A DNA stretch of 51,918 bases, from positions 1 through 51,918 of the forward strand of contig NZ_JAFLDR010000029.1 of the NCBI RefSeq assembly GCF_017302275.1. The letters are read 5' to 3'. Position numbers and translations under genes: made by a program. This document shows, one piece after another, positions 6,537 through 49,483 of the stretch. Position 1 is the first letter of the stretch. Each line of letters opens with the position of its first letter. The notes beneath the pieces were generated by a model, which was not told the origin of the DNA, searched no databases, and saw only the letters and a list, made by a program, of their open reading frames with translations. This DNA is from Sulfuritalea sp. GTDB lineage: Bacteria > Pseudomonadota > Gammaproteobacteria > Burkholderiales > Rhodocyclaceae.

Positions 6537-6549
6537 CAGCGCCGACTTT
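6537..6549 (+). repeat. Dispersed 13-bp motif, copy 1
   Basis: Exact CAGCGCCGACTTT with the longer upstream match ATCGCCGTG-TCGC. It falls in the 47-bp gap between the zinc-ribbon gene and the OYE-like gene, ending 17 bp before that ATG, where a ribosome-binding site would be expected but none is obvious. Confidence 0.7.
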
Positions 6550-6565
6550 CATCCGCTGCTGAACC

Positions 6566-8014: not shown

Positions 8015-8078
8015 GGTTGGAGCGCAATGCCACCGGGAGCAATGTTGATCCGCCAGGTAAGCCAAGCATAGGAAGCCC

Positions 8079-8097
8079 CCCCCGGCACTGCCGGGGG
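8079..8097. terminator. GC-rich hairpin between convergent genes
   Basis: CCCCCGGCA-C-TGCCGGGGG forms a perfect 9-bp stem with a one-base centre, between the OYE-like gene and the convergent SDR gene. There is no clear T-tract on either strand, so termination efficiency is uncertain. Its placement suggests a shared terminator. Confidence 0.5.
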
Positions 8098-8119
8098 ACG
8101 CTTGCTTCATTCTCGGCTG

Positions 8120-9701: not shown

Positions 9702-11084
9702 TCAGGCGGCTTTGGGTGGCCAGTCGACGTTCGGCAGGGTCTTCAGCGATTTTTGCAGGTCTTCATCGGAGTAGGCGAAGTCCTGCATGTTGCCGGAGAA
9801 GTAGTTCTCGTAGGCGGCCATGTCGAAGTGGCCGTGGCCGGAGAGGTTGAAGAACAGGGTCTTCGGCTCGCCGCTGGCCTTGCAGCGCAGCGCCTCGTCG
9901 ATGCAGGCGCGGATGCCGTGGGCCGATTCGGGCGCCGGGATGATGCCCTCGGCACGGGCAAACATGACGCCAGCCTCGAAGGTGGCGGTCTGCGGCACGG
10001 CCACGGCCTCAATCAGCTTCTCGTGGTAAAGCTGCGAGATCAGCGGGCTGTCGCCATGGTAACGCAGGCCGCCGGCGTGGATGCCGGGGGGCATGAAGTC
10101 ATGGCCGAGGGTGTACATCTTCATCATCGGCGTGAAGCCCGAGGCATCGCCGTAGTCATAGGCATACACGCCCTTGGTCAGGGTCGGGCAGGAGGCCGGT
10201 TCGACGGCAACCATGCGGATCTTCTGCGCGCGCTTGTCGCCCGCCGCGGCATCGCCGAGGAAGGGGAACACGGCGCCGGCGAAGTTGCAGCCGCCGCCGC
10301 AGGGCGCGAACATCATGTCGGGGTATTCACCGATCTTCTCGAACTGCTTCTTGGCTTCGAGGCCGATCACGGTCTGGTGCAGCAGCACGTGGTTGAGCAC
10401 CGAGCCCAGCGCGTACTTGCTGCCGGGATTGCTGACCACGGCTTCGATCGCCTCGGAAATCGCGATGCCCAGGCTGCCCGGGTTGTTCGGATCGGCGGCC
10501 AGGATGTCGCGGCCGGTCTTGGTGCGCTCGGACGGGCTGGCCACCACGTCGCCGCCCCAGGTCTGCATCATCAGGCGGCGGTAGGGCTTCTGGTTGAAGC
10601 TGACCTTGACCATGTAGATTTCCACGGGCAGGCCGAAGCACTGGCCGGCGAAGGACAGCGAGGAACCCCACTGGCCAGCGCCGGTCTCGGTGATCAGGCG
10701 CTTGGTACCGGCGATCTTGTTCAGGTAGGCCTGCGGCACGGCCGAGTTCGGCTTGTGCGAACCGGCCGGCGAAACGCCTTCATACTTGTAGAAAATTTTC
10801 GCCGGGGTGCCCAGCATCTGCTCCAGGCGCTCGGCGCGGCACAGCGGGCTGGGGCGCCACAGCGCGTAGATCTTGCGCACTTCCTCGGGGATGGCGATCC
10901 AGCGCTCGGCGGACATTTCCTGCTCCAGTACCGGGCCGGGGAAGATCGCCAGCATCTGCTCCGGCGACACCGGATTGCCGTCACCGCCCAGGGGCGGCAG
11001 CGGCGGCGTCGTCAGGTCGGCGGCGATGTTGTACCAGTGGGTCGGGATTTCGCTTTCATCAAGTACGACGCGGGTTCTGCTCAT
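9702..11084 (-). CDS. TrpB2-type tryptophan synthase beta-like PLP enzyme
   Basis: This 460-residue protein is of the long TrpB2 class rather than the 400-residue TrpB1 paired with TrpA. The PLP lysine lies in AGSHKPNSA (about residue 113), the glutamate-containing [11 protein letters not shown] follows, and the phosphate-binding CGGGCNFAG is near 265. It would join serine and indole to make tryptophan, or act as a serine deaminase-like enzyme. No trpA or other trp gene is nearby, which is common for TrpB2. The ATG at 11084 has an AGAGGAG ribosome-binding site. The gene diverges from the xdhC operon. Link to the IorAB indole-side chemistry 6 kb away is speculative. Confidence 0.85.
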
Positions 11085-11299
11085 GTCTTCAGTCTCCTCT
11101 ATTTTGTCTTGGTCGCTTAAGGCTGCGCTAGGATCATGGATCAGAGATGGCCGGAAGGCATTTCGACAATGCATCGCGCCGCCGGCTGGCAGGTCCAATT
11201 CAGGATACGGTACACTGTATGCAAAGAACCGGCGGAATGTCAATCCGTCGGTGAGGGTTTTTTTGAAGATGGGCATTGACTGGTTGTTTCGATACCGAC

Positions 11300-11623
11300 A
11301 TGCACGCAGACGACGATAGGCTTTTTGCAACCCTGCGCGACTGGTGCGCCGCCGGAAAGCCCGCGGCATTGGCCACCGTGGTCAGCACCTGGGGCTCTTC
11401 GCCGCGGCCCGAGGGTAGCCATCTCGCCGTCGATGGCGATGGGCATTTCATTGGTTCGGTTTCCGGCGGCTGCATCGAGGGGGCGGTGATCGAAGCCGCG
11501 CTGCAGGTCATGCAGAGCCGCCAGCCGCGCCTGCTTGAATTTGGCGTCAGCGACGAACAGGCCTGGCAGGTCGGGCTGGCCTGCGGCGGCCGCGTGCAGG
11601 TCTTCGTGGAGGCGGTGGAATGA
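11300..11623 (+). CDS. XdhC/CoxI family N-terminal domain protein
   Basis: The 107-residue product covers only the first domain of XdhC ([21 protein letters not shown], then [16 protein letters not shown]). XdhC proteins bind molybdenum cofactor and help its sulfuration and insertion into xanthine-dehydrogenase-family enzymes. The second domain is encoded by the next gene (ATGA overlap). The two-gene arrangement is intact, not a frameshift, because the junction has a proper stop and start. The ATG at 11300 is preferred over a TTG 24 bases earlier. It is the first gene of a six-gene overlapping operon ending at 16183. Confidence 0.8.
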
Positions 11624-12315
11624 AGGCGGCGGCGCTCGCGCGCCTTGCCGAGGCGCAGGCGAAGCGCCAGGCGCTGGTGGTGGTGACGCGGCTGGCCGAC
11701 GGCGCGCAGTGCCTGGTCGATGCCGCCGGCTGCAGCGGCGACCTGCAATTGGCGACCGAGGCCGTCGCCGAGACCGCCGCACTCCTGCTGTCGGGGCGTA
11801 GCGCCTCGCTGGCGAGTGCCCCCGGCTGTTTCGCCCGCGCCTATGTGCCGTCGCCGCGCCTGCTGATCGTCGGGGCGGTGCATATCGCCCAGGCGCTGGC
11901 GCCGATGGCCGCCACTGCGGGTTACGAAGTCACGGTGATCGATCCGCGCGGCGCCTTCGCCTCGCCCGAACGCTTTCCCGGGGTGCCGCTCAGCGACGAA
12001 TGGCCCGATGAAGCGCTGGCGCGCCTCGGCCTCGATGCGGCCACCGCGCTGGTCGCGCTGTCGCACGATCCCAAGCTGGACGACCCGGCGCTGGAACTGG
12101 CGCTGCCGAGCACGCTTTTCTACATCGGTGCGCTGGGCAGCCGCCGCACCCACGAAAAGCGCCTGGAGCGCCTGCGCGCGGCGGGCCTGGGCGAACTCAC
12201 CGGGCGCATCCATTCGCCGATCGGCCTCGACCTCGGCGGTCGCGCGCCGGCCGAGATCGCCGTATCCATCCTCGCCGAGATCATCCAGGTTCGCCATCGG
12301 GGCGCCGCCGCGTGA
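11620..12315 (+). CDS. XdhC family C-terminal Rossmann-domain protein
   Basis: The 231-residue protein holds the NAD-binding-like half of XdhC: RLLIVGAVHIAQALAPMAA near residue 82, VTVIDPRGAFASPERFPG near 108 and the conserved FYIGALGSRRTHEKRLERL near 168. In most relatives this is fused to the domain encoded just upstream. The usual glycine-rich GAGHVA is here GAVHIA. Together the two proteins probably act as a molybdenum-cofactor chaperone. The start overlaps the previous stop and the end overlaps the MocA-like gene, so translation is coupled along the chain. Confidence 0.8.
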   Translation: MKAAALARLAEAQAKRQALVVVTRLADGAQCLVDAAGCSGDLQLATEAVAETAALLLSGRSASLASAPGCFARAYVPSPRLLIVGAVHIAQALAPMAATAGYEVTVIDPRGAFASPERFPGVPLSDEWPDEALARLGLDAATALVALSHDPKLDDPALELALPSTLFYIGALGSRRTHEKRLERLRAAGLGELTGRIHSPIGLDLGGRAPAEIAVSILAEIIQVRHRGAAA

Positions 12316-13931
12316 TTTTCGGCGAATTCCCTGTCGAGGAATGCGAAGGCCTGCTGCTGGCGCACAGCCTGCGCCTCGCCGGACGCACGCTGAAGAAAGG
12401 GCGCCGTGTCACCAGCGCCGACTTTCCCGAACTGATCGCCGCCGGCCACCGGCGCATCCACGGCGCACGCCTTGGCGCCGGCGACCTGACCGAGGATGCG
12501 GCCGCGGCCGCGGTGGCCGCCCTGTTGCAAACCGACGGCATCGTCGCCCGCAAGGCCTACACCGGTCGCTGCAACCTGCACGCGACGCGCCGCGGCCTGG
12601 TCACGGTCGATGCCGGAATCATCGACCGGATCAATGCCGTCGACGCGGCCGTCACCGTCGCCACGCTGGCGCCGCTTGCGCCGGTGCGCCCCGGCGGCGT
12701 GGTGGCGACGGTCAAGATCATTCCGCTGGCGGTGGGGCAGGCGGTCATCGATCGCTGCGCGGGCGAGGCTGGGCGCGGCGTGGCGCTGGGTCTGCGTCCC
12801 TTCGCGCAAAAGCGTGCCGCGCTGATCGTCACCGAACAGGCGGGTGACCCGGAAAAGAACTACGCCTCCGCCGTCACCAGCAGCCGGCGCCGCATCGAGG
12901 ACCTCGGCAGCCACCTCGGCCTGGTGCAGCGCTGCGCCCACCGGCGCGATGCAGTGGCGCTGGCCCTGCGCGAAAGCCTGGTGGCCGGTTGCGACCTGCT
13001 CATGATCGCCGGCGCGACGGTGCCCAAGGACAGGGCCGACACCATTCCGTCGGCAATCGTCGCCGCCGGGGGCGAGATTGTCCATTTCGGCATGCCGGTG
13101 GAGCCTGGCAACATGCTGCTGCTGGCACGGATCGGCGTGGTGCCGACGATCATCCTGCCCGGTTGCGCGCGTTCGCGTCGCACGAACGGCCTCGACTGGG
13201 TGCTGCAGCGCATGCTGGCCGGCTTGGCCGTGGGTGCTGCCGAGATCAAGGCGATGGGCGTCGGCGGTCTGATCCGCAGCGCGCCCGAGGCCGAGGAAGA
13301 CCCCGAGGCGGTGGAGCCGACGCCGCAGCGCGTCGCTGCCGGTCGCCGCGTCGCCGCCCTGATGCTTGCCGCCGGCAGCAGCCGGCGTATGCAAGGAGGC
13401 AACAAGCTGCTGCAGCCGGTGGCTGGCGTGCCCATGGTGCGCCGCGCGGCAAATGCGGCGCTGGCCTCGCGCAGCGTGGCCATGGTCGTCGTCACCGGTT
13501 TCGCCGCGGAGGCGGTGCGCCAGAGCCTGGTCGGGCTGGACCTCGAATTCGCCCACAACGCCGACCACGAGAGTGGAATGGCCTCGTCGCTGCGCGCCGG
13601 ATTGCGGGCGCTGCCGGCCGACACCGATGCGGTGGTGGTGGTGCTGGGCGACATGCCGTTCGTCAGCGCGGCGCACATCGACCGCCTGATTGCCGCCTTC
13701 GACCCCGCGCGCGGCAACATCGTGGTGCCGATGAAGGACGGCCGGCGCGGCAACCCCATCGTCTGGCCGCGCGCCTACTTCGCGGAAATGGAACAGGTGC
13801 AGGGCGATGTCGGCGCCCGGGAACTGCTGCAACGCCATGCCGGTCGCGTCGATGTCGTGGATTTTGACGACGACGCCATCTTCGCCGACGTCGATACGCC
13901 GGAAGCACTACGCGCGCTGGAGCCGCGATGA
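12312..13931 (+). CDS. Molybdopterin-binding domain fused to a MocA/MobA-like nucleotidyltransferase
   Basis: The first half (about 1-340) is a MoeA/MoCF-like molybdopterin-binding domain with GATVPKDRADTIPSAIVAAG and HFGMPVEPGNMLLLARIG...PGCARS near 230-290. The second half (about 350-539) is an NTP transferase with LMLAAGSSRRMQGGNKLL and VVVVLGDMPFVS, the nucleotide and metal sites of MocA. Such fusions attach CMP to molybdopterin, giving the dinucleotide cofactor used by xanthine-dehydrogenase-family hydroxylases. The operon partners XdhC, SufS and SufU fit delivery of a sulfurated cofactor, but no hydroxylase gene is seen in the window. A copy of the dispersed motif lies near the N-terminus and encodes VTSADF. 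Confidence 0.82.
   Translation: MIFGEFPVEECEGLLLAHSLRLAGRTLKKGRRVTSADFPELIAAGHRRIHGARLGAGDLTEDAAAAAVAALLQTDGIVARKAYTGRCNLHATRRGLVTVDAGIIDRINAVDAAVTVATLAPLAPVRPGGVVATVKIIPLAVGQAVIDRCAGEAGRGVALGLRPFAQKRAALIVTEQAGDPEKNYASAVTSSRRRIEDLGSHLGLVQRCAHRRDAVALALRESLVAGCDLLMIAGATVPKDRADTIPSAIVAAGGEIVHFGMPVEPGNMLLLARIGVVPTIILPGCARSRRTNGLDWVLQRMLAGLAVGAAEIKAMGVGGLIRSAPEAEEDPEAVEPTPQRVAAGRRVAALMLAAGSSRRMQGGNKLLQPVAGVPMVRRAANAALASRSVAMVVVTGFAAEAVRQSLVGLDLEFAHNADHESGMASSLRAGLRALPADTDAVVVVLGDMPFVSAAHIDRLIAAFDPARGNIVVPMKDGRRGNPIVWPRAYFAEMEQVQGDVGARELLQRHAGRVDVVDFDDDAIFADVDTPEALRALEPR
12413..12425 (+). repeat. Dispersed 13-bp motif, copy 2
   Basis: Exact core preceded by GCCGTG-TCAC, inside the molybdopterin-binding gene at codons 34-38, read in the frame that gives SADF. 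Confidence 0.7.
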
Positions 13932-17365: not shown

Positions 17366-19558
17366 ATGAAACAACAATCCACTTTTCTCCGCCCAGGCAT
17401 CGACAGCACGGTTCGCGGCGATTTTTCCGTGCGTTTTTTCCAGCACGCGATTGCCGCCTTGGTGCTGGGCATCGTGCTCTTCTCCGTCGTCATTCGGGTC
17501 GCGGAGCCGGACCAGACCGGGCGCCTGGTCGGTCCTATGGTAGGCATGGTGCTGCTGGCGGTGATCTGGTGGCTGATCGGTCGTGGCCGGTTGCAGGCGG
17601 CCGCCAACCTGTTCGCCGGCGGCGCGTGGCTGGTGGTCACCAGTATCTGCGTTTTCTTTGGCGGCGTGCACACCGCGATCTTCATCGTCTATCCGCTGCT
17701 GATCGTCTATGTCGGCTGGGCGATAAGCATGCGCGCGGCGGCCCTGTTTGCGGGCCTGACCGTTTCGGCGATCACCGGCCTGGTGCTGGCCGAACACCTG
17801 GGGACGTTGCCGCTGGTGCCGCCGACGCCGCTGTTGGTATTCTGGGTGATCCCGGTCCTGTACGTGAGCGTCGCCCTGGCCCTTGTCGGCTCGCTGGTAT
17901 CGGTTTATCAGCGTCGCGTCGGCGAACTGGAGCGCGAACGGCAATTCTCGGCGGAGATCATCAATTCCCTGCCCGGCATGTTCTACATGTTCGACGCAGA
18001 CGGACGCTTCGTGCGCTGGAATCGCCGGTTCAACGATGCCACGACCTACACCGACCAGGAACTGGCGGCGATGAAGGCCGCGGATTTCTTTCGCGGCGAC
18101 GACAAGAAACGCGTCGCGGAGGCCGCGCGGCGAGTGTTCGCCGAGGGGCTCGCCGATATCGAGGCCGACCTCGCTCCCGCAAAGGGGCCGACCATCCCCT
18201 GCCGCTTCACCGGCGTCCGTGCCACGATAGGAGACGAATCCTTCCTGCTCGGTGTCGGCCTCGACATCAGCGAAAACAGGCGGAACCTGGCCAAACTTGA
18301 GGAATACCGCCAGCACCTCGAACAGATGATCGAGGCACGCACGGCCGACCTGTCGGTCGCCAAGGAGGCTGCCGAAGCCGCCAACCGGGCCAAGAGCACC
18401 TTCCTTGCCACCATGAGCCACGAACTGCGCACGCCGATGAACGCGATCATGGGCATGACCAGCCTGGCGATGCGACGCACCATGGATGCCCGGCTGCTGG
18501 ACCACCTCGAAAAGATCGACCATGCCTCGCACCACCTGCTGGCGGTGATCAACAGCATCCTCGACATCTCCCGGATCGAGGCCGATCGGCTGGTGCTGGA
18601 ACAGATCGACTTCACGCCGGCGGCCGTGCTGGAAAAGCTGCCGGCGCTGATCGGCTACAAGGCGGCGGAAAAAGGCCTGACGCTGGAGATCGACGTTGCG
18701 CCCGAGGCGGAACGCCTGAGCTTGCGAGGCGACCCGATGCGCGTCGGCCAGGTCCTGCTCAACCTCGCCGACAATGCCGTCAAGTTCACCGAGCGGGGCA
18801 AGGTTGTCGTACGCCTGCGACTGGCCGGGGATGCCGCGGACCATGTGCTGTTGCGCTTCGAGGTCGAGGACACGGGCATCGGCATTTCGGAAACGGACCG
18901 GAAGCGGGTGTTCGCCGCCTTCGAACAGGCCGACGGCTCGATGACGAGGAAGTATGGCGGCAGCGGCCTGGGACTGGCGATCAGCCGGCGCCTCGCGCGG
19001 CTGATGGGCGGTGACATCACGGTCGACAGCCGGCCGGGCGAGGGCAGTTGTTTCGTGTTCACCCTGCTCTTGCCCAGGTCGACGGGTGCCGTCGCGCCAG
19101 CGCCGACTTTTGGACCCGGGACGGCCGGCGACCGGCTGAGGAACGAGTTTTCCGGCATCCGGGTCCTGCTGGCCGAGGACGAACCGGTGAACGGCGAAGT
19201 CGCACGGACGCTGCTGGAGGCCCAGGGACTGGTGGTCGATGTCGCTGTCGACGGTGTCGAGGCCGTGGCGCTGGCGCGGCAGACACCGTACGCACTGATC
19301 CTGATGGACATCCAGATGCCGAACCTGAACGGCGTTGACGCGACGCGGGCGATCCGTGCGTTGCCGCCCCACGCGCGCACGCCTGTCCTGGCCATGACGG
19401 CGAACGCCTTTGCCGAAGACCGCAAGGTCTGCCTTGCCGCCGGCATGGACGATCACCTGCCCAAGCCCGTCATTCCGGATCGCCTGTATGAGGCGGTGTT
19501 GACCTGGCTCTTGCGTGCGCGCGCGCCGACGGTTTCCGGCACGGCCGCGGCGCGATGA
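17366..19558 (+). CDS. Hybrid sensor histidine kinase with N-terminal multi-helix membrane domain
   Basis: The 730-residue protein has about six membrane helices (20-190), a PAS domain (200-310, SAEIINSLPGMFYMFDADGRF), a coiled linker, the phospho-acceptor helix MSHELRTPMNAIMG near 352, an HATPase domain (NAVKFT, DTGIGIS, GGSGLGLAIS, about 450-570) and a receiver (VLLAEDEPVN, LILMDIQMPNLNG, about 600-720). The membrane domain clearly resembles that of the kinase at 24883. It has AGGAG ahead of its ATG. The domain order points to phosphorelay signalling from a membrane cue. The target is unknown. Confidence 0.87.
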   Translation: MKQQSTFLRPGIDSTVRGDFSVRFFQHAIAALVLGIVLFSVVIRVAEPDQTGRLVGPMVGMVLLAVIWWLIGRGRLQAAANLFAGGAWLVVTSICVFFGGVHTAIFIVYPLLIVYVGWAISMRAAALFAGLTVSAITGLVLAEHLGTLPLVPPTPLLVFWVIPVLYVSVALALVGSLVSVYQRRVGELERERQFSAEIINSLPGMFYMFDADGRFVRWNRRFNDATTYTDQELAAMKAADFFRGDDKKRVAEAARRVFAEGLADIEADLAPAKGPTIPCRFTGVRATIGDESFLLGVGLDISENRRNLAKLEEYRQHLEQMIEARTADLSVAKEAAEAANRAKSTFLATMSHELRTPMNAIMGMTSLAMRRTMDARLLDHLEKIDHASHHLLAVINSILDISRIEADRLVLEQIDFTPAAVLEKLPALIGYKAAEKGLTLEIDVAPEAERLSLRGDPMRVGQVLLNLADNAVKFTERGKVVVRLRLAGDAADHVLLRFEVEDTGIGISETDRKRVFAAFEQADGSMTRKYGGSGLGLAISRRLARLMGGDITVDSRPGEGSCFVFTLLLPRSTGAVAPAPTFGPGTAGDRLRNEFSGIRVLLAEDEPVNGEVARTLLEAQGLVVDVAVDGVEAVALARQTPYALILMDIQMPNLNGVDATRAIRALPPHARTPVLAMTANAFAEDRKVCLAAGMDDHLPKPVIPDRLYEAVLTWLLRARAPTVSGTAAAR
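19098..19110 (+). repeat. Dispersed 13-bp motif, copy 3
   Basis: Exact core with upstream GCCGTCGCGC. It sits in the kinase gene in the linker between ATPase and receiver domains, in the frame that reads APAPTF, followed by TTGGACCCGG, which resembles the flank of copy 6. Confidence 0.7.
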
Positions 19559-20020: not shown

Positions 20021-21507
20021 ACGACTTCCCGCGTCAGCCCGCGATGGTCGCGCGTGGCCGCGTCAATCACCGTGCCGTCGGCGCCGACTATGGCCACTTC
20101 CAGCGGCATCTGTCCCAGGGCATGGGTGGCGCAGGACAGGCAGGGGTCGAAGGCGCGGATGGCGATCTCGATGTGGTTGAGCAGGCCCTCGGTGACCTCG
20201 ACGCCGTCGAGGTATTGCCTGGCCACTTCCCGCACCGCCGTGTTCATCGCCTGGTTGTTGTGCGTGGTGGAGACGATCAGGTTGGCGCGGATCACCTGGT
20301 CGTTCTCGTCGACGCGGTAATGGTGGATCAAGGTGCCACGCGGCGCCTCGATGACGCCGACGCCGCGCTCCTGACGCTCGCCGGTGGCCATGAGTTCGGT
20401 GCCGGTGATGTCGTCGTCGTGCAGCAGGTCCTTGATGCTCTCGGCGGCGTGCAGCATTTCGATCATGCGCGCCCAGTGATAGCCCAGGGTCGCGCCGGCG
20501 GCACTGCCGCCGTCGAAGGCGAGGAAGGTTTCGCGTTCCTTGTCGGCCAGCGGTGTCGGGATGCTGTCGCACATCGTGACCCGTGACAGCGGACCGACGC
20601 GGTAGGAGCCGTCCTCGGTGCCCAGCGCCTTGAAGTATGGAAACTTCATGTAGGACCAGGGTTTGACGTCCTCGGCGATGACATCCCAGTAGCGGCCGTA
20701 GTCGAAGTGGTCGAACAGGGTCTTGCCCTCGATGTCGCGCGCGCGCAGGCCACCGTGGTACAGGTCCATGGCGCCATCGGCCCGCACCAGGCACATGCCG
20801 GCGGAGCGGAAGCGGCCGAAGGCGTTGTACTCGGCGAGGTTCTGCTCGAACAGGCCGCGGATGATGCCGACGGCCTCGCGGCTCCAGGCCACCATCTGGT
20901 AGATGTCCTTGAGCAACTCCGCGCGCTCCTCGGCGGCAAGCGACTTGTTTACCCCGCCCGGAATCGAGCCCGTGCCATGCACGCGCTTGCCGGCGGTCAT
21001 GCGGATCACCTCCTGGCCGTACTTTCTCAGCAGCACGCCTTTCTTCGCCACCTCGGGGTGGGCCGCGACCACGCCGACGATATTGCGGGAGGCCGGGTCC
21101 GAGCCGAAACCGAACAGTAGGTCGGGCGATGAGAGGTGGAAGAAGTGCAGGGCATGCGACTGCAGGATCTGGCCAGCGTGCATCAGGCGGCGCATTTTCT
21201 CGGCGGTGGACGTTAACTGCTTGACGCCGAGGATCATGTCCAGCGCCTTGGATGCCGCGAGGTGGTGCGAGACCGGGCAGATGCCGCACAGGCGCTGCAC
21301 CATCACCGGCACTTCCCAGTAGGGGCGGCCCTGGATGAATTTCTCGAAGCCACGGAATTCGACGATGTGCAGGCGCACCTGGTGCACCTTGTTGTCGTCG
21401 TCGAGCAGGATGGTGACCTTGCCGTGGCCCTCGACCCGCGATACCGGATCGATGGCGACGCGGCGCAGCTTTTCGGGGTGCCTGGCGGTTTCGAGTTCGA
21501 ATGTCAT
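20017..21507 (-). CDS. hoxH: NAD-reducing [NiFe] hydrogenase large subunit HoxH
   Basis: The 496-residue protein has both nickel-binding cysteine pairs: RLCGIC (C74, C77) and DPCLSCATH (C456, C459). The 34 residues after His462 are the tail removed by the maturation protease, whose gene follows. DPVSRVEGHGK near residue 20 is the usual N-terminal signature. With HoxF, U and Y it forms the soluble cytoplasmic bidirectional hydrogenase that couples H2 and NAD+/NADH. A degenerate relative of the dispersed motif lies in the tail coding region (around 20077-20099). Confidence 0.95.
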   Translation of the reverse strand: MTFELETARHPEKLRRVAIDPVSRVEGHGKVTILLDDDNKVHQVRLHIVEFRGFEKFIQGRPYWEVPVMVQRLCGICPVSHHLAASKALDMILGVKQLTSTAEKMRRLMHAGQILQSHALHFFHLSSPDLLFGFGSDPASRNIVGVVAAHPEVAKKGVLLRKYGQEVIRMTAGKRVHGTGSIPGGVNKSLAAEERAELLKDIYQMVAWSREAVGIIRGLFEQNLAEYNAFGRFRSAGMCLVRADGAMDLYHGGLRARDIEGKTLFDHFDYGRYWDVIAEDVKPWSYMKFPYFKALGTEDGSYRVGPLSRVTMCDSIPTPLADKERETFLAFDGGSAAGATLGYHWARMIEMLHAAESIKDLLHDDDITGTELMATGERQERGVGVIEAPRGTLIHHYRVDENDQVIRANLIVSTTHNNQAMNTAVREVARQYLDGVEVTEGLLNHIEIAIRAFDPCLSCATHALGQMPLEVAIVGADGTVIDAATRDHRGLTREVV

Positions 21508-22811: not shown

Positions 22812-24607
22812 GTCGTTTCCTCGTTGCTCAGGTGGGCGGCGGCATCGTCGCGCCCGGTCATCTGCCTGGCCTGCGACAGCGCGGCGTCGAGGTCGAAGGC
22901 CGGTTCGTAGTCGAGCGACTTCAGGCGCCGCTCGTAGGCCGGGCGGAACTTGTTGAGCGTGTCGAACACCGGGTTGCAGGCCGAGTTGCCCAGCCCGCAG
23001 TGGCTGGCGCCCTGCATCACGCGGTGCAGCTTGAACAGCTCGTTGATGTCGTAGGGCGAGCCCTGGCCGCGCGAAATCTTGTCCATCATGTTGCGTACCA
23101 GGGTCGTGCCGACGCGGCAGGGGGTGCAGAAGCCGCAGGACTCGTGGGCGAAGAAGTGGGCGAAGTTGCGCGCCACCTCGAACAAGTCGCGCGTCTCGTC
23201 GAAGACCATGAAGGCGCCGGCGGTGGGCAGGTCCTCGAAGGCGATCCTGCGGCCGAATTCTTCGGCGGCGACGCAAATGCCGGAAGGCCCGGAGATCTGC
23301 ACCGCCTGCGAATCCGTGGCGCCGCAGTCCTCCAGCACCTGGCGCACCGTGACGCCATAAGGATATTCATAGATGCCGGGGCGCTCGCAGTCGCCGCTCA
23401 CCGAGAGAATCTTGCTGCCGGCGGACTTCTCGGTGCCATGCCCCGCGTACCAGGCGCCGCCATGCGCGGCGATCAGGCAGGCTGCGGCAAGGGTCTCGAC
23501 GTTGTTCACCGTGGTCGGCTGGTCGAGGTAGCCGCGCGTGACGGGGAAGGGCGGGCGGATGCGCGGCCGGCCGGGCTTGCCTTCGAGTGATTCGATCAAC
23601 GCCGATTCCTCGCCGCAGACATAGGCGCCTGCGCCAAGGTGGATCTCGATATCGAAGTCGAAGCCCTTGCCGAGGATGTTGGCACCGAGCAGTCCTGCCG
23701 CACGCCGTGCCGCCAGCGTCGACTCCATGGGTTCCAGCAGGTAGCGGTATTCGCCGCGCAGGTAGATCAGGCCCTTCTTCGCGCCGACCACATAGCCGGC
23801 GATGCTCATGCCTTCGAAGACGAGGTCGGCATACGAGTTCAGTAGCACGCGGTCCTTGAAGGTGCCGGGCTCGCCCTCGTCGGCGTTGCACACCACGTAA
23901 TGCGCCGGACTTCCGCCTGTGCCCACCGCGTTGCGGCAGGCCTCCCATTTCATGCCCGTTGAGAAGCCCGCGCCGCCGCGGCCGCGCAGCTTGCCGGCCT
24001 TGATTTCGTCGAGCGTGCCCTGCGCTCCGCGCTCCAGCGCCGTCTTCAGCGCCTGCCCGTTGCTCAGTTCGTGGCCGAGCAGGATGTCCTTGCGCCGGAT
24101 GTTGTCCTCGACCTCGAACCATTCGGCCGGCCATTCGGCGACGGGCTTCTGCTCGCGGATCAGTCCGACCAGCTCGCCGAGCCGTGCCTGGGTCATGCGG
24201 GGTATGGCGCGGTAATTGACCAGAACCGCCGGGCCCTGGTCGCACATGCCGGTGCAGGACGTCGTGTTGACGCTGACCAGACCGTCCTCGGAAACACGGC
24301 CGGGTTCGAGCCAGAGCTTCTTGCACATCGCGTCCATCAGGTCGGTGTTGCCCAGCATGCGGTCGGTGATGTTGTCCGACCAGAGCACGCAATACTGGCC
24401 ACGCGGCCGGGTGTGGAAGAAGCTGTAGAAGGATGCCGTGCCACTGACCTCGGCGCGCGGCCGGCCGATCCCGGTGGCGATGCGGCTCAGGGTGGCCGGC
24501 GACAGCCAACCCAGTTGCTCCTGGGTTTCTCGCAGGATCTGCACCAGGCGCGTGCCATTGCGATCGTGGCGATCGAGAACGGCGTCGATTCGGGAGAAAT
24601 CGGTCAT
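22808..24607 (-). CDS. hoxF: Hydrogenase diaphorase subunit HoxF (NuoE-NuoF fusion)
   Basis: The 599-residue protein joins a NuoE-like thioredoxin fold (1-150; cysteines in GQYCVLWSDN and TTSCTGMCDQGP) to a NuoF-like core. The core has FMN-binding GRGGAGFSTGMKW near 213, the NADH loop GAGAYVCGEESALIESLEGK near 328 and the [4Fe-4S] ligands ESCGFCTPCR...SHCGLG near 495-540. This fusion is the form in Ralstonia-type soluble hydrogenases and replaces a separate HoxE. It is the first gene of the operon. The promoter must lie in the 275-bp gap shared with the divergent kinase gene. Confidence 0.94.
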   Translation of the reverse strand: MTDFSRIDAVLDRHDRNGTRLVQILRETQEQLGWLSPATLSRIATGIGRPRAEVSGTASFYSFFHTRPRGQYCVLWSDNITDRMLGNTDLMDAMCKKLWLEPGRVSEDGLVSVNTTSCTGMCDQGPAVLVNYRAIPRMTQARLGELVGLIREQKPVAEWPAEWFEVEDNIRRKDILLGHELSNGQALKTALERGAQGTLDEIKAGKLRGRGGAGFSTGMKWEACRNAVGTGGSPAHYVVCNADEGEPGTFKDRVLLNSYADLVFEGMSIAGYVVGAKKGLIYLRGEYRYLLEPMESTLAARRAAGLLGANILGKGFDFDIEIHLGAGAYVCGEESALIESLEGKPGRPRIRPPFPVTRGYLDQPTTVNNVETLAAACLIAAHGGAWYAGHGTEKSAGSKILSVSGDCERPGIYEYPYGVTVRQVLEDCGATDSQAVQISGPSGICVAAEEFGRRIAFEDLPTAGAFMVFDETRDLFEVARNFAHFFAHESCGFCTPCRVGTTLVRNMMDKISRGQGSPYDINELFKLHRVMQGASHCGLGNSACNPVFDTLNKFRPAYERRLKSLDYEPAFDLDAALSQARQMTGRDDAAAHLSNEETT

Positions 24608-31503: not shown

Positions 31504-31749
31504 TCAGTCCAGCCAGCGCACCAGGTAGTACAAGCGAAAGCCCTCGGACGAGCGCGACGGCCCCATCACCTCGGCGGCATGGAGGTTGCCCGCCGGGTCG
31601 GCCATGGCCAGCGCCGTGGCCTCGTCTGCCACGATATCGACGCAGGTCTCGGCAAAGCGTTTGCGCGATCCGCGCCGCGCATGGACCACGGCGAACTGCG
31701 CGCGCACCAGTTGCGGCGCCTCGGCATCCAGATACACGCCGCCCTTCAT
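31504..31749 (-). CDS. Small uncharacterised protein, 81 residues, end of the MoxR-VWA operon
   Basis: The product (MKGGVYLDAEAPQLVRAQFAV..., ending RLYYLVRWLD) has no cysteine motif beyond one Cys, no membrane helix and no family I recognise. It begins within the stop codon of the preceding gene (ATGA), so it is very likely translated together with it. Being the fourth gene of an overlapping MoxR ATPase set, it may be an accessory of that complex. Confidence 0.6.
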   Translation of the reverse strand: MKGGVYLDAEAPQLVRAQFAVVHARRGSRKRFAETCVDIVADEATALAMADPAGNLHAAEVMGPSRSSEGFRLYYLVRWLD

Positions 31750-32783
31750 GGTGGGCTCCCGCGCAGCACGCGCAGATGATCCTGCAGCGGCGCAAACAGC
31801 GGTTCGAGGTGGCGCCGCATCAGTGCACCGACCGCGCTGGTTCGGGTCAGGATGGGCGCGGCGGAGGCGTCCGACAGGCCCGCCAGGGCGGCCATCGCCT
31901 GCGCGTCCGGCAGGCGCTCTCCCTTCATGTGGGGCGGAACTTCGAGCCCGCGCAGCGCGGCGAAATAGTTGCCGACGATGTCCAGCAGCAGGTACACCGC
32001 GTCCGGTGCCGGCGGTTTTTCCATGACCAACTCGGTCGCCGCGAGGAAACTCTGGCCGCTCGCCGAGCGGCAACGGGCCAGCAACCGCGCCCAGGGTTCG
32101 CCGGCCGCAGCCAGCGCCAGGAGGTCGCCCGGCAGCTCGCGTGGCGTGCCGCCCGGCAACGCATCCGGACGGTGTTCGAGGAAGCCGATGAAGTAGTGTG
32201 GGCGGCGCCGGGCTTTCGCCCAGAGTTGTTCGGCGGCGGTGTCGTCGAGCAGATCGGCGCCGATCACGGCGCGGATCGAATGCATGGCGAGGATCGGGTC
32301 CTCCTCGAATGGCAGGTGTTCGATCAGGAATCCGGCCAGCACCGGCCCCATCCTTCCCTGCCGCACGGCGGCATGTTCGAGCATGCTGCGCGCCACTTCC
32401 ATGGTCGGCAGCGCCCACCAGGCGCGGCGCGCCAGTTCGTCGTCAAGAGTCGGCGCCAGCGCCACGGCGGTGACCGCCTCCGGTTCGCCGAGCTTGAGCA
32501 GGGCGGCCAGGTTTTTCGGGCTGGCATGCCCCATGCGCGTCCAGTGCCGCAGGTGCACCGGGTAGCCACCGGGCGAATCCAGGGCATGGCCACCGAGCAG
32601 TTCGCGCACCCGCATCAGGTACAGGTCGGCGCGGCAATTGCGATTCAGCGTGATGCGCGCCTCGCCCTTCGGTGTCAGCGCATGCAGCGTCATCGTTCCC
32701 TCGTCGATGCGCACCGCGTGCAGCTCGCCGGCCAGCAGGATATTGAGGCGCAGTGCGTCCTCGGCGGCGAGTTCGGCCTTCAA
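31746..32783 (-). CDS. Uncharacterised 345-residue protein of the MoxR-VWA operon (DsrS-like?)
   Basis: An alpha-helical soluble protein. It has an N-terminal beta-rich part (LHALTPKGEARITLNRNC, near residues 33-50) and a helical repeat-like remainder with many Ala/Leu positions (ALAPTLDDELARRAWWALPTMEVARSMLEH). The arrangement beside MoxR and VWA genes, and the size, resemble proteins annotated as DsrS in sulfur-oxidising bacteria, but I cannot confirm that. It overlaps the VWA gene by four bases upstream and the 81-residue gene downstream. A degenerate copy of the dispersed motif (32444-32468) encodes LAPTLDD. Confidence 0.55.
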   Translation of the reverse strand: MKAELAAEDALRLNILLAGELHAVRIDEGTMTLHALTPKGEARITLNRNCRADLYLMRVRELLGGHALDSPGGYPVHLRHWTRMGHASPKNLAALLKLGEPEAVTAVALAPTLDDELARRAWWALPTMEVARSMLEHAAVRQGRMGPVLAGFLIEHLPFEEDPILAMHSIRAVIGADLLDDTAAEQLWAKARRRPHYFIGFLEHRPDALPGGTPRELPGDLLALAAAGEPWARLLARCRSASGQSFLAATELVMEKPPAPDAVYLLLDIVGNYFAALRGLEVPPHMKGERLPDAQAMAALAGLSDASAAPILTRTSAVGALMRRHLEPLFAPLQDHLRVLRGSPP

Positions 32784-34018
32784 TTGAGCTGGATCCTGAG
32801 GCCCCAGGGTACCGGCGCCTTGCCCTTGACCAGCCAGAGCACCGGGTAGTCCGGTGCCAGTTTGGGAAAATCGCCCTCGGCGTCGGTGAAATACACCAGG
32901 GCATCGGGCCGCGCGCCTACGCCCTCGATCCAGTCGAAGACCGGCGCGAACGAGGTATCGCCGCCCCCTTCGAAGCGGCGCGGCAGGTGCAGCTCCTGCC
33001 AGGGCTCGCAGATCCAGGGTGCATCGGGTGCCAGCGCCGCGTCACAGGCAAGCAGGCTGATGCGCACCGGCAGCGTACCCTTGAGCGCGTTGAGCTCGCC
33101 GACGAAGGCGGCGAGGTCGGCGTCGGAAATCGAGCCGGAGGTGTCGAGCGCCACCACGATGTCGCCGGCGCGGCTGCGCAGGCTGGGCAGGAGGGCGTCG
33201 CCCGGACTTTCCCCGCTGCGCCGCGAGGGCCGCGCCCAGCTGTAGTCGTCGCGCGCCGCCTGCGACAGGTATTGCGCCAGCGCCGCGCGCCACGAGACTT
33301 GCGGTGCCAGGGTGGCGTCGGCGAGGCGGGCAAGGATGGCGGAGAGCTTTCCCGACTCGCGCGCGCGCTGCGCGGCGGCGGCGAGATGCCGCTGCCATTG
33401 CTGCTGCAGTTGGTCCTTTTCCCGCGCCGACAGCGGGGGCGGTGGCGCTGCCGCGGATTCGTTCGCCGTGTCGCCAGCGCCGACTTTCTGCGGGGCATCG
33501 TTGCCTGAGCCTTCTCCGCTTCCGCCCTGGCCATCCCCCTGCCCACCGTCGTCGCCGTCCCAGGCGTGGTCGTCCAGGGTTTCCTGGTCGAGGCTGTCGT
33601 CGAGGCAGGGATAAATCTCTTCGGCGGCCATGCCGTGGTACAGGCTCAGCACCTGCGCTCCGGGCGGCGGCTTGAGGCCTTCGTCCAGCAGCAGCGGGTT
33701 GACCGCGAAGTCGCAGGCCAGATCCCACAGCCGCTGCACCCGGTGGCCGCGCCGCGCGAAATGGCCCAGCGCACAATGCAGCGCCTCGTGGGCCAGCGCG
33801 AACCGCACCTCGGCCGCGCTCAGGCCGGCGATCCATTGCGGGTTGTAGTAGAGCTTGCGCGCGTCGGTGCCGGTGGTGCGGCACCATTCGCCGGCGGCGA
33901 CCAGCGGCAGGCGCAGCACCAGCGCGCCGAGGAAGGGCTTGTCCAGGATCAGCCTCGCTCGTGCGGCGGCGAGCATCGCCGCGGCGCGGGTGGCGGCCGG
34001 TTCCGGGACTTCAGTCAT
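32780..34018 (-). CDS. VWA-like protein with zinc-peptidase-like N-terminal domain
   Basis: The 412-residue protein combines an HExxH-type site (FALAHEALHCALGHF near residue 76) with an acidic, Gly-rich linker (160-195) and a C-terminal VWA-like domain. The VWA MIDAS DxSxS is seen in VVALDTSGSISDAD near 290. This two-domain layout is found beside MoxR ATPases, where the pair is thought to act as a metal-dependent chaperone on protein complexes. It overlaps the MoxR gene by eight bases. The linker contains a copy of the dispersed motif on the opposite strand, reading KVGAGDTA. Confidence 0.8.
   Translation of the reverse strand: MTEVPEPAATRAAAMLAAARARLILDKPFLGALVLRLPLVAAGEWCRTTGTDARKLYYNPQWIAGLSAAEVRFALAHEALHCALGHFARRGHRVQRLWDLACDFAVNPLLLDEGLKPPPGAQVLSLYHGMAAEEIYPCLDDSLDQETLDDHAWDGDDGGQGDGQGGSGEGSGNDAPQKVGAGDTANESAAAPPPPLSAREKDQLQQQWQRHLAAAAQRARESGKLSAILARLADATLAPQVSWRAALAQYLSQAARDDYSWARPSRRSGESPGDALLPSLRSRAGDIVVALDTSGSISDADLAAFVGELNALKGTLPVRISLLACDAALAPDAPWICEPWQELHLPRRFEGGGDTSFAPVFDWIEGVGARPDALVYFTDAEGDFPKLAPDYPVLWLVKGKAPVPWGLRIQLN
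33475..33487 (+). repeat. Dispersed 13-bp motif, copy 4
   Basis: Exact core with the long upstream match TTCGCCGTG-TCGC. It lies within the VWA gene but on the non-coding strand, in the low-complexity linker. Confidence 0.7.
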
Positions 34019-40766: not shown

Positions 40767-41118
40767 GATGGTGGTTGGGTGGTTGTGGATTGAGGAGTCC
40801 GGATTATGGGGGCGCCCGGCATTTTTGGTCGGGACGAGCCGGATTCGCCGTATCGCCAGCGCCGACTTTTTGTTGGCCGCAATTCGTGCTGGGCGGCTGC
40901 GGATTGCCGGGGCAATCGTCCGCCGCAATTCTGAATCCTTGTGGCGCGGGACGTTGCAGAAAGTGACGCGCACGATCGCTGGCGCCGATGCAAAAAGCCA
41001 AGCAGGCGAGACCCGTGGTCAAGCGCGCAGCGCAGGATCCCCGGTTAATCGCTGCGGCCGAAGCTGAAGCCGAGGTCCTGGCCCTTGATGGTCAGTGCGG
41101 GGAACGCCGCGAATCGTG
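40767..41118. other. Non-coding gap of 350 bp carrying a motif copy
   Basis: No convincing gene is seen between the SnoaL-like gene and the hflX stop codon. The gap holds the best-preserved extended copy of the dispersed motif and some imperfect GC-rich repeats (GCAATTCGTGC and GCAATTCTGAAT flank a stretch GGCAATCGTCCGCC). No terminator with a T-tract is evident. Confidence 0.5.
40857..40869 (+). repeat. Dispersed 13-bp motif, copy 5
   Basis: Exact core with upstream GGATTCGCCGTA-TCGC, in the non-coding gap 91 bp upstream of the SnoaL-like start codon. This is the only copy far from any reading frame on the same strand. Confidence 0.7.
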
Positions 41119-45760: not shown

Positions 45761-46531
45761 TTATCCGGCGATCCCGTCGTAGATCAGCTTGGCGCCCGCC
45801 GCCAGCAGCGTCCAGGCAGTGACGAGGTTGAAGCCGCGCATGTCGACGGCGTGCAGCAGGCGGTAGCCAAGAAAGTAGCCGAGCGGGATCGCCGGTGCCA
45901 GCAGCAGCGATACGCCGAGGTTGGAGAGGTCGATCAGGCCGAGCTGGGCATAGGGTCCGAGCTTGGCGAAATTCACCACCGAAAAGAAGATTACCGTGGT
46001 GCCGACCATGCGCATCTTGTCCATGTTCTGCGGCATCAGGTATTGCATGATCGGCGGGCCGCCGGCGTGCGAGACGAAGCTGGTGAAGCCCGCGACGCTG
46101 CTCCAGAATATGCCGGGACCAAAAGTCGGCGCTGACAACACGGCGTTGGCGGTGCTGCGCGCGGCGCGGAAGCGATCGAGGGCGAAGGTCACGGCCTCGA
46201 TGCCGATCAGCAGCTTGATCCAGCGCCCGTCGACATGGCCGAAGGTGAGCCAGCCCAAGGCGATGCCGAGCATCGCGCCGGGCAGGATGATGCGCAGGTT
46301 GGCCGCATCGGCGCGGCCGCGGAACACCACCAGTCCGATGAGGTCGATCGTCAGCAGGATGGGCAGCATCACGGCGGAGGCGAAGGGTGCAGACACGGCC
46401 AGCGCCATCAGCGGCACGCCGAGGCTGCCGGCGGCGCCGCCGAAGCCGGCCTTGGACATGCCGAACAGCAGCGTGGCGATCGCGGCGAGCAGCCAGAAGG
46501 CGGGCGGCAGGGTGGCGGCATGGTCGAACAT
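45761..46531 (-). CDS. TauE/SafE family membrane permease
   Basis: The 256-residue protein has about eight helices and two family repeats: LLFGMSKAGFGGAAGSLGVPLMAL near residue 22 and GFTSFVSHAGGPPIMQYLMPQ near 150. TauE/SafE proteins export or import sulfur-containing organic anions such as sulfoacetate or sulfite. The substrate here is unknown. A copy of the dispersed motif sits between the two halves and reads LSAPTFGPG. The family normally has a short variable loop there. Confidence 0.82.
   Translation of the reverse strand: MFDHAATLPPAFWLLAAIATLLFGMSKAGFGGAAGSLGVPLMALAVSAPFASAVMLPILLTIDLIGLVVFRGRADAANLRIILPGAMLGIALGWLTFGHVDGRWIKLLIGIEAVTFALDRFRAARSTANAVLSAPTFGPGIFWSSVAGFTSFVSHAGGPPIMQYLMPQNMDKMRMVGTTVIFFSVVNFAKLGPYAQLGLIDLSNLGVSLLLAPAIPLGYFLGYRLLHAVDMRGFNLVTAWTLLAAGAKLIYDGIAG
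46122..46134 (-). repeat. Dispersed 13-bp motif, copy 6 (the only exact minus-strand copy)
   Basis: Exact core on the coding strand of the TauE-like gene, upstream GCCGTG-TTGT and downstream TGGTCCCGG. The following peptide GPG matches that after copy 3, so similarity extends beyond the core. Confidence 0.7.
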
Positions 46532-47132: not shown

Positions 47133-47161
47133 TTGATGTTACATCAACACGACGATGTAAC
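47133..47161 (+). promoter_or_regulatory. Overlapping dyads in the chr operon promoter
   Basis: TTGATGT-T-ACATCAA (47133-47147) overlaps a second perfect dyad, GTTACATC (47138-47145) with GATGTAAC (47154-47161). They end five bases before the chrB ATG, in an AT-rich upstream region, so a bound repressor would block the operon. ChrB proteins are known regulators of chr genes and are the obvious candidate. Confidence 0.65.
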
Positions 47162-47166
47162 CGCCC

Positions 47167-48078
47167 ATGGACTTCCTCGCCCTGTTCGTCAGCCTGCCGA
47201 CGCGTCAGACCGCCGGGCGCATGCGCATCTGGCGCGCGCTGCGTGCGCTGGGCTGTGCCACCCTGCGCGACGGGGTGTATCTGCTGCCCGACTCGGGAAA
47301 ACATGTCGCGGCGCTGGATGAAGTGGCCGCCGAAGTGCGTGCCGCACAGGGCATGGCTGATGTCTTCCTGCTCGGCGGACGCGACGAAAGCCAGCAGGCC
47401 GCCATCATCGCGTTGTTCGATCGTGCAACGGATTACGCCGCGCTGCTGGCGACGATGGGCCGGACCGATGGCAATGACGGCAAGGCCTTGCGCGGCCTGA
47501 AACGCGACCTGGCGGCGCTGGTCGCCATCGATTATTTCCCCGGCGAGGCGCAGCGCCAGGCCCGGGCGGCGCTGGCGGCGCTCGAAGCGGCGGCCAACGG
47601 CGAACCGGCGACGACGGCCGGAGAAATTCGCCGTCTCGCCAGCGCCGACTTTCAGGGCCGCACCTGGGCGACGCGCAAAAACCTCTGGGTCGACCGCATG
47701 GCCTCGGCCTGGCTGATCCGCCGCTTCATCGACCGCAAGGCGAAGTTCCTCTGGCTCGACAATCCGAAGAAATGCCCGAAGGCCGCGCTCGGCTTCGACT
47801 TCGACGGCGCCGCATTTACCCATGTCGGCGGACGCGTCAGCTTCGAGGTTCTCGCCGCGAGTTTCGGCCTCGACGCCGATCCCGCGCTTTCGCAAATTGC
47901 AGCGATCGTGCATTGCCTCGATGTCGGCGGCGTGCCGGTGGCCGAGGCGGCCGGCGTCGAAGCCGTGCTGGCCGGCCTGCGCGCCGCGTCCGAAGACGAC
48001 GACAAACTGCTCACTGCCGCCGCGCGCGTGTTCGACGGCCTCTATCAGCACTACCAACAGGAGCCCACGAATGGCTGA
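47167..48078 (+). CDS. chrB: Chromate resistance regulator ChrB
   Basis: The 303-residue protein has an N-terminal winged-helix-like part (LFVSLPTRQTAGRMRIWRALRALGCATLRDGVYLLPD, about 5-42) and the C-terminal ChrB domain (TWATRKNLWVDRMASAWLIRRFIDRKAKFLWL near 172-200, then GFDFDGAAFTHVGGRVSFEVLAASFGL). ChrB controls chromate-induced expression of chrA. It overlaps chrA by eight bases. The junction of the two domains carries an exact copy of the dispersed motif, read as LASADF. Confidence 0.85.
   Translation: MDFLALFVSLPTRQTAGRMRIWRALRALGCATLRDGVYLLPDSGKHVAALDEVAAEVRAAQGMADVFLLGGRDESQQAAIIALFDRATDYAALLATMGRTDGNDGKALRGLKRDLAALVAIDYFPGEAQRQARAALAALEAAANGEPATTAGEIRRLASADFQGRTWATRKNLWVDRMASAWLIRRFIDRKAKFLWLDNPKKCPKAALGFDFDGAAFTHVGGRVSFEVLAASFGLDADPALSQIAAIVHCLDVGGVPVAEAAGVEAVLAGLRAASEDDDKLLTAAARVFDGLYQHYQQEPTNG
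47640..47652 (+). repeat. Dispersed 13-bp motif, copy 7
   Basis: Exact core with upstream ATTCGCCGTC-TCGC, in chrB at the linker between its two domains. Confidence 0.7.
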
Positions 48079-49483
48079 TTCAAATAAGGATTCACCTTCC
48101 ACGGCTGGCTTTGCACAGCCAGCCGGCTCCGCGGGCGCGGAGCAATGCTCCGCGAATTCCCCGCTCCGCCCATCAGCGCCGACTTTCATGGAAGCCCTGC
48201 GCTTCTGGTTCAAGCTCGGTTTCATCAGCTTCGGCGGCCCGGCCGGACAGATCGCGATCATGCACCAGGAGCTGGTCGAGCGCCGGCGCTGGATTTCCGA
48301 GCACCGCTTCCTGCATGCGCTCAACTACTGCATGCTGCTGCCGGGGCCGGAAGCCTGCCAGCTGGCGATCTATACCGGCTGGCTGCTGCACGGCTTGCGC
48401 GGCGGATTGATGGCGGGCCTGCTGTTCTTCCTGCCGGCCTTCTTCCTGCTCTCCCTGCTGGCCGGGCTGTATCTGGCCTTCGGCGACCTGCCGCTGGTGC
48501 AGGGCGTGTTCTACGGCATCAAGCCGGCCGTGGTGGCCGTAGTGCTTTTCGCGGCCTGGCGCATCGGCTCGCGCGCGATCAAGAACGGCCTGCTGCTGGC
48601 GATCTCCGCCGCCGCCTTCGTCGGTATTTTCTTCTTCGACATCGGCTTTCCCTGGATTGTGCTGGCGGCGGGCATCCTCGGCGCGATTGGCGGCAAACTG
48701 CTGCCGGGGAAGTTTTCCGGCGGCGGCGGCCATGGCGGCAGCAACAAGGGCTACGGCCCGGCGCTGATCGACGACGACACGCCGCCGCCGCCGCACGCGA
48801 AGTTCTCCCTGGCCAAGCTGGCCCTGACCACGTTCGCTTTCGTTGCCGTCGGCGCCGCAACGCTGCTGGCGCTGCGCGGTAATGCCGACCTCTACCACAT
48901 GGGCGAGTTCTTCACCAAGGCCGCCTTCCTCACCATCGGCGGCGCCTATGCGGTGCTGCCCTACGTGTATCAGGGCGGCGTCGAGCAGTACGCCTGGCTC
49001 ACCGGCCCGCAGATGATGGACGGCCTGGCGCTGGGCGAAACCACACCGGGACCGCTGATCATGATCGTCACCTGGGTCGGCTACCTCGGCGGCGTGGCCA
49101 AGGCGGCGGCCGGCGGCTCGATTGCCTCGGGCCTGGCGGGTGCAACGGTGGCGACCTTCTTCACCTTCCTCCCCAGCTTCCTGTTCATCATCGCCGGCGG
49201 ACCGCTGGTCGAGGCCTCGCGCGACGACATCAAATTCACCGCGCCGCTGACCGGCATCACCGCCGCCGTGGTCGGCGTGATCGTGAACCTGGCCGCCTTC
49301 TTCGCCTGGCATACCTTCTGGCCGCAGGCCACCGCCGCCGCGCCCTTCGGCGGGTCCTTCGAGGGCCTAGCCGTGCTGATCGCCGCCGCCGCCTTCGTCG
49401 CGCTGTGGAAGTACAAGCAGGACATCATGAAAGTAATCGGCGTCTGCGCGCTGCTGGGCCTGGCGCTCTCGTTCATCCGCTGA
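48071..49483 (+). CDS. chrA: Chromate transporter ChrA
   Basis: The 470-residue protein has the two homologous CHR halves: FWFKLGFISFGGPAGQIAIMHQELVERRRWIS near residue 45 and FFTKAAFLTIGGAYAVLPYVYQGGVEQ near 280, each followed by PGP-type motifs (LLPGPEACQLAIYTGW; GETTPGPLIMIVTWVGYLGG). It exports chromate from the cytoplasm. The first 39 residues are not part of the family; the internal ATG at 48188 would give the normal start. The extension is encoded by two hairpins and a copy of the dispersed motif, suggesting insertion. Confidence 0.93.
   Translation: MADSNKDSPSTAGFAQPAGSAGAEQCSANSPLRPSAPTFMEALRFWFKLGFISFGGPAGQIAIMHQELVERRRWISEHRFLHALNYCMLLPGPEACQLAIYTGWLLHGLRGGLMAGLLFFLPAFFLLSLLAGLYLAFGDLPLVQGVFYGIKPAVVAVVLFAAWRIGSRAIKNGLLLAISAAAFVGIFFFDIGFPWIVLAAGILGAIGGKLLPGKFSGGGGHGGSNKGYGPALIDDDTPPPPHAKFSLAKLALTTFAFVAVGAATLLALRGNADLYHMGEFFTKAAFLTIGGAYAVLPYVYQGGVEQYAWLTGPQMMDGLALGETTPGPLIMIVTWVGYLGGVAKAAAGGSIASGLAGATVATFFTFLPSFLFIIAGGPLVEASRDDIKFTAPLTGITAAVVGVIVNLAAFFAWHTFWPQATAAAPFGGSFEGLAVLIAAAAFVALWKYKQDIMKVIGVCALLGLALSFIR
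48103..48154 (+). repeat. Tandem hairpins at the 5' end of chrA
   Basis: Two perfect inverted repeats in a row: GGCTGGCT-6 bp-AGCCAGCC (48103-48124) and CGCGGAGCA-A-TGCTCCGCG (48136-48154). They are translated as part of the non-conserved ChrA extension and end 19 bp before motif copy 8. Confidence 0.75.
48174..48186 (+). repeat. Dispersed 13-bp motif, copy 8
   Basis: Exact core with a diverged upstream flank (CCGCCCAT). It is followed directly by the internal ATG of chrA at 48188, in the frame reading APTF. Confidence 0.7.

Follow-up and report, generated by a model that had tools for sequence, protein, structure and literature searches.

Results

A 24-bp motif around a repeated 13-bp word

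The window that we analysed, 51,918 nucleotides of a Sulfuritalea genome, contains one 13-bp word, CAGCGCCGACTTT, eight times, inside and outside genes. What has placed this word there, and what keeps it? An earlier note on this DNA had listed the eight copies and offered three readings: an uptake signal, a segregation signal or the scar of a small mobile element. All eight exact copies were recovered at the positions and on the strands given (Table 1), and the claim that far fewer than one would be expected by chance also holds: 100 dinucleotide shuffles of the window gave a mean of 0.01 copies and never more than 1, and an order-3 Markov model of the genome sample predicts 0.008. The window is contig 22 of the source genome (G000; 4,409,354 bases in 88 contigs). 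In the 4.4 Mb of G000 we counted 249 copies of the 13-mer, against 0.70 expected under the order-3 Markov model and 0 for the reversed pattern used as control. As 129 of them are forward and 120 reverse, the 7:1 strand ratio noticed in the window is real but local. The copies lie on both strands, in several frames and in unrelated genes, some deep within long genes, which bears out the proposal that selection or spread acts on the DNA and not on protein motifs.

An alignment of 30 genome copies, limited to distinct ones with full flanks, showed that the 13-mer forms the 3' core of a larger motif of 24 bp, CGCCGTNNCGCCAGCGCCGACTTT. This motif is not a palindrome and has sharp bounds: the next base is usually a pyrimidine, and neither flank shows any conservation. 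The longer upstream match that several copies had been seen to share is part of this single unit, and seven of the eight exact cores in the window carry the 24-mer at 0-2 mismatches. Beyond the exact cores, the window has two copies with 3 mismatches (23703 and 32446) and one with 4 (20068), of which those at 20068 and 32446 match the degenerate relatives reported near 20077 and 32444.

Table 1. Copies of the 24-bp motif and of its core in the window
Feature	Coordinates	Strand	Mismatches to CGCCGTNNCGCCAGCGCCGACTTT	Context
Motif copy	6526..6549	+	0	Outside genes of the simple caller
Motif copy	12402..12425	+	1	Within gene 12312-13931 (+), read RRVTSADF
Motif copy	19087..19110	+	1	Within gene 17366-19558 (+), read AVAPAPTF
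Degenerate copy	20068..20091	+	4
Motif copy	23703..23726	+	3	Antisense within gene 22808-24607 (-)
Motif copy	32446..32469	-	3	Within gene 31746-32783 (-)
Motif copy	33464..33487	+	0	Antisense within gene 32780-34018 (-), read KVGAGDTA
Motif copy	40846..40869	+	0	Outside genes of the simple caller
Motif copy	46122..46145	-	2	Within gene 45761-46531 (-)
Motif copy	47629..47652	+	0	Within gene 47167-48078 (+), presumably ChrB-like, read RRLASADF
Exact 13-bp core without upstream half	48174..48186	+	7 over 24	Membership doubtful

Throughout G000, CGCCGTNNCGCCAGCGCCGACTTT occurs 715 times at up to 3 mismatches (359 and 356 on the two strands) and its control once. The mismatch histogram is bimodal in a sample of 834 kb, made up of the window and 40 further stretches of G000: 109 copies have 0 to 3 mismatches (18, 33, 39 and 19, respectively; control 0), 10 have 4 (control 1) and 12 have 5 (control 10), and from 5 mismatches upward the count merges with the control. 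The density of the motif is about 1 per 6-8 kb. Among the 119 sample copies with up to 4 mismatches, CGT and GCCGAC are 96-100% fixed and the remaining positions are variable, with particular changes tolerated (position 13 of the motif accepts A or G, and position 23 accepts T, C or A). A near-fixed core with position-specific tolerated changes is typical of a recognised site and not of even decay. When the seven full copies of the window were folded as single strands, six were no more stable than their shuffles (z between 0.2 and 0.9), and the seventh (12400) reached a z of -2.1 with another fold. Close inverted pairs are rare, the nearest spacing being 294 bp in the sample; one pair 150 bp apart was found among the matches listed genome-wide.

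Placement in genes, on strands and in stretches of different GC content

Of the 119 copies, 83 lie inside called genes (51 antisense, 32 sense), 34 are intergenic and 2 partial. The intergenic excess is modest, 80% of the sample being called coding by a home-made gene caller that under-calls low-GC stretches and that called two whole 20-kb stretches as one gene each. Thirty intergenic copies could be classified by their neighbours, 11 as convergent, 16 as tandem and 3 as divergent. Within genes the same readings recur, KVGAG-TA in 43 of the 51 antisense copies, AV-PAPTF in 18 and RR-ASADF in 11 of the 32 sense copies, and the genes that carry them include those that we take to be LeuS, ProS, TsaD, PlsY, LpxD and MoeA. 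On G000 contig 1, at about 20-75 kb (L165-L167), giant minus-strand open frames fill whole 20-kb stretches, perhaps as one very long adhesin-like gene; six motif copies lie in L165 and L166.

The strand of the copies was compared between replichores in a closed relative (G002, a single contig of 3,802,648 bases), using 20 evenly spaced stretches (400 kb) and a replichore assignment from GC skew, which is noisy. We found 20 plus and 13 minus copies on one replichore and 12 and 12 on the other, with 3 and 5 in two stretches left unassigned, a result that speaks against the segregation signal suggested earlier. An apparent replichore bias beyond 2.4 Mb, seen among the matches listed for this genome (52 of its 65 places on the plus strand and 48 of its 69 on the minus strand), proved to be an artefact of that listing; the evenly spaced sample is unbiased.

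The distribution of the motif follows GC content closely. In the G000 sample, stretches below 60% GC have 5 copies over 236 kb and those above it 104 over 598 kb (Poisson 1.5e-12), or 0.21 versus 1.74 per 10 kb, so that the motif is about eight-fold rarer in low GC. Across L167-L173, 140 kb lack any copy. Low-GC DNA would be acquired DNA, a view to which the gene content of four low-GC stretches lends support, with proteins that we take to be integrase-like, Wadjet-like and plasmid-segregation-like among their products. A low-GC, motif-free part of G000 contig 1 (L171, 6755-13465) contains four consecutive overlapping genes, presumably with the look of a Wadjet-type defence operon. Viral contigs gave 45 extra copies in 80 loci taken from at least 120 matching stretches, 0.62 per 10 kb versus 1.39 in 80 named loci, which is no clean test because viral contigs may include host flanks. 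On one IMG/VR contig (L319), perhaps within a repetitive gene, there are five exact copies, all with the same strand and the first four at intervals of exactly 316 bp.

Origin of copies at orthologous sites

Six sites within a single region were checked against the genomes of up to seven members of the same genus. At three coding sites, all 17 comparisons were gapless with graded mismatches, and at a fourth site the motif was gapless in 6 of 6 with flanks that were mostly gapped. A site at a gene's stop codon was mostly gapped, and the sixth was gapless in 4 of 7, the remaining three genomes having diverged there. In an alignment of proS from 30 genomes, 28 are gapless over the motif codons; the motif is antisense in six genomes (0-3 mismatches), and in three genomes of genus g43 it lies in the same linker with the other orientation (2-3 mismatches), probably as an independent origin at a tolerant site. 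The proS genes of G002 and G005 (L205, L207) share a 24-bp in-frame insert inside the motif. We considered this insert as a second repeat and rejected it, its exact sequence occurring in G002 and G005 only, among 268 loci; a shorter form is absent from the window at up to 3 mismatches.

Over 70.6 kb aligned between G000 and G002 (leaving out alignments below 400 bases, below 72% identity or overlapping a better one), 23 of 29 rows were gapless, with an identity in these of 92% within the motif and 80% in the flanks. The rows count both directions and so are not independent, and choosing sites by their match in one genome gives an upward bias. Point substitution, without insertion, thus accounts for most of the gain and decay of motif copies at the orthologous sites compared. 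The graded point differences, with no insertion at most compared sites, do not agree with the scar of a small mobile element that the earlier note had envisaged.

Two longer repeats were seen on G000 contig 2 (L178). One of roughly 143 bp, at about 11284-11426, has well over ten copies in G002 at 76-84% identity; the other, of roughly 110 bp at about 10182-10291, has many copies in several same-genus genomes.

Distribution among genomes

In a set of 61 genomes the 13-mer was present in all 30 other genomes of the same genus (6 to 328 copies), and the other 30 had at most 3 copies. Within the GTDB family, 21 of the 199 sampled genomes, from six genera, reach 100 or more copies when up to 2 mismatches are allowed; the genomes next below these carriers have 32, 26, 14 and 13. 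Outside the family, the maximum was 5 copies in 290 genomes of the order (300 sampled), 14 of which have 1-5. Submitters' names on contigs with at least one copy include, among the matches listed, Sulfuritalea, Sulfurisoma, Rugosibacter and others, and these three genera belong to the NCBI Sterolibacteriaceae. Judged from such names, the carriers appear to be the Sulfuritalea lineage (NCBI Sterolibacteriaceae). The carriers do not form one clade in a ComEC tree, which requires 5 changes, 4 of them forced by supported branches, the positions of two long non-carrier branches being unsure.

Small clusters of the motif occur in some non-carriers. In G135, 5 of the 6 copies fall within 41 kb (L525, L526), beside genes that we take to be RND metal-efflux-like, transposase-like and dihydropteroate-synthase-like, and this cluster is a candidate island received from a motif carrier. 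In a ranking of words in the non-carriers G035, G073 and G103, motif words were not top-ranked; other GC-rich 12-mers occur up to 14 times in G073, and judged on word counts only, the motif is not unique.

A variant in one genus and a probable loss in another genome

In G098, which belongs to another genus, the frame of the motif is unchanged and a T replaces a C of the core (GCGTCGAC). A search with CCGTNNCGCCAGCGTCGACTTT, allowing 1 mismatch, gave 99 copies in this genome, the T being retained among the matches listed. In 16 sampled copies, from stretches chosen mainly for copies already found there, the T has a frequency of 93%; a second change, from G to C, affects motif position 10 with a frequency of 56%. 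A lineage-specific dialect is therefore seen in one genus, represented by one genome, with one near-fixed and one preferred change.

G017, a member of the same genus placed among the same-genus carriers in the ComEC tree, has 6 copies of the 13-mer. When five orthologous sites were compared with G000 (excluding alignments below 250 bases), the motif was 58-75% identical at the three gapless ones and the flanks 84-86%, and going by these alignments the G017 lineage has probably lost the motif. In 120 kb of G017, motif words were absent from the top-ranked words; the top word, GCCGGCACCGGC, which may be a replacement, has 8 copies, and in a G000 sample of the same size the leading word has 11.

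Competence machinery and candidate receptors

ComEC was found in all 30 genomes searched, carriers and non-carriers. G000 encodes 15 prepilin-type N-termini, including PilE-like and FimT-like pilins side by side at C6:72-74 kb. As ComEC and pilins are also present in non-carriers, the machinery is there and does not discriminate. We considered both pilins as the receptor and could take neither as demonstrated. The PilE-like pilin does not track the motif, the carriers G008, G177 and G091 matching it at 33-36%, and the FimT-like pilin has C-termini that are alike in carriers and non-carriers where seen. FimT of Legionella is described as binding DNA by means of a C-terminal region in which a GRxR motif is conserved (PMC8897410); the G000 FimT-like protein reads GGIARLCDP at that region. 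None of six pilins tested reached the NCBIfam equivalog cut-off, and a phmmer search of the PDB with the PilE-like protein returned 17 sequences, none named ComP. On G000 contig 12 (L234, L235), two adjoining pilin-like open frames of 59 residues from the chosen start resemble the short PilA-N pilins of Geobacter.

Discussion

We propose that the motif serves natural transformation in the Sulfuritalea lineage as a DNA uptake sequence, a reading to which, from sequence comparison, we give a probability of roughly 0.68. A surface receptor, probably a type IV minor pilin, would bind double-stranded DNA bearing CGCCGTNNCGCCAGCGCCGACTTT; retraction of the pilus would draw the bound DNA in, and one strand would cross the inner membrane through ComEC and then recombine. 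Mutations toward the motif would spread at tolerated sites, genome-wide, because fragments with a better match would be taken up more often (molecular drive), and the motifs so accumulated would mark the DNA of relatives as self. What the sequences show is over-representation, sharp bounds, position-specific constraint, an origin mostly by substitution at the compared sites, conservation above the flanks, scarcity in low GC, the variant, the near-loss and the presence of ComEC and type IV pilin genes; the role in uptake and the kind of receptor are inferred. Of the readings in the earlier note, the uptake signal is the one that fits the tests run; the segregation signal and the mobile-element scar are not supported.

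A motif that occurs genome-wide, is spread over the chromosome, acts at the level of DNA and is more conserved than its flanks could also be a chromosome-organising or repair signal, bound inside the cell by a nucleoid, segregation or recombination protein, and a genus-specific variant could equally reflect co-evolution with such an intracellular protein. We regard this as unlikely, given an evenly spaced sample without replichore strand bias, the near-loss in a genome of the same genus, which is hard to reconcile with an essential function, and the scarcity in low-GC stretches, where the same segregation would be needed; the specificity would also exceed what one binding site needs. Self-specific abundance and low-GC scarcity would likewise follow if a nuclease or restriction-like defence system spared motif-bearing DNA as self. 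Such a system would leave the 140-kb copy-free stretches unmarked, and we consider it improbable.

Of still lower standing is a REP-like or other small inserted mobile element, to which the interspersed copies and their modest intergenic excess might point and which we can hardly credit: homologous sites are mostly gapless with graded mismatches, most copies are inside called genes, six of seven window copies fold no better than shuffles, and the variable positions are specific rather than spread as in decay. Just as implausible is a regulatory or termination signal. The intergenic copies, with 11 convergent, 16 tandem and 3 divergent, count in its favour, but most copies are in genes, in both orientations and several frames, six of seven have no stable hairpin and close inverted pairs are rare.

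REP elements are short dispersed repeats present in hundreds per genome, and are inserted hairpins that are mostly intergenic. The motif shares their dispersal, shortness and number, and differs in being mostly genic, without a stable hairpin in six of the seven copies tested and of substitution origin. KOPS, Chi and similar polarised motifs, of about 8 bp, are strand-biased and over-represented genome-wide, the last of which holds here without the replichore bias. HIP1 of cyanobacteria is a lineage-specific, highly iterated word, as is our motif, which in contrast to that short palindrome is long and non-palindromic.

On paper, the motif more closely recalls the DUS of Neisseriaceae or the USS of Pasteurellaceae, with the tested sequence-level features present, if with exceptions. 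DUS are described as coming in dialects (PMC3630211) and as lacking in genomic islands (PMC7371117), and as with DUS we find a genome-wide word, genic and intergenic, with lineage dialects and scarcity in putative islands. The sequences are unrelated; ours has 24 bp in two parts and DUS 10-12 bp, copies number hundreds here and thousands in DUS, close inverted pairs are rare, and no ComP homologue was recognised here. Published uptake sequences are described as originating by accumulation of point mutations and not by insertion, in a paper that also brings in the HIP1 palindrome for comparison (PMC1939737), and USS as having a lower density in strain-specific segments (PMC7811141). With USS our motif has in common a strongly fixed core with a weaker flank, a point-mutation origin and a lower density in part of the genome; its sequence is unrelated and GC-rich, its copies are fewer and its carriers environmental. 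It is longer and rarer than either DUS or USS.

Open-licence PubMed Central yielded neither a paper containing the string CGCCAGCGCCGAC nor one in which 'DNA uptake sequence' occurs together with Rhodocyclaceae, or natural transformation together with Sulfuritalea hydrogenivorans. The one paper that combines 'DNA uptake sequence' with Betaproteobacteria and 'overrepresented' deals with Neisseria, and the lineage was absent among the 12 of 48 papers listed for a further query. Among open-licence papers, which give no proof of absence, we thus found no report of an uptake sequence in this lineage. On balance we think that the motif is probably an uptake language that evolved independently, the third besides those known from Neisseriaceae and Pasteurellaceae. 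On this reading at least six environmental betaproteobacterial genera would share a two-part tag of 24 bp, which would have a dialect of its own and have been lost recently in one lineage, and motif-marked islands would reveal transfer to relatives that are not carriers.

According to a 2020 paper, strong uptake preferences occur in species that belong to two families and live mainly in mucosal environments (PMC7811141). A third, environmental case, if true, would test whether the evolution of such tags needs a host life or competition with host DNA. It would also be an independent replicate of molecular drive, with loss and dialect inside one family, and would pose a new problem of recognition between pilus and DNA at an unusually long site. 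The motif is in addition a marker for tracing gene flow from carriers into their relatives.
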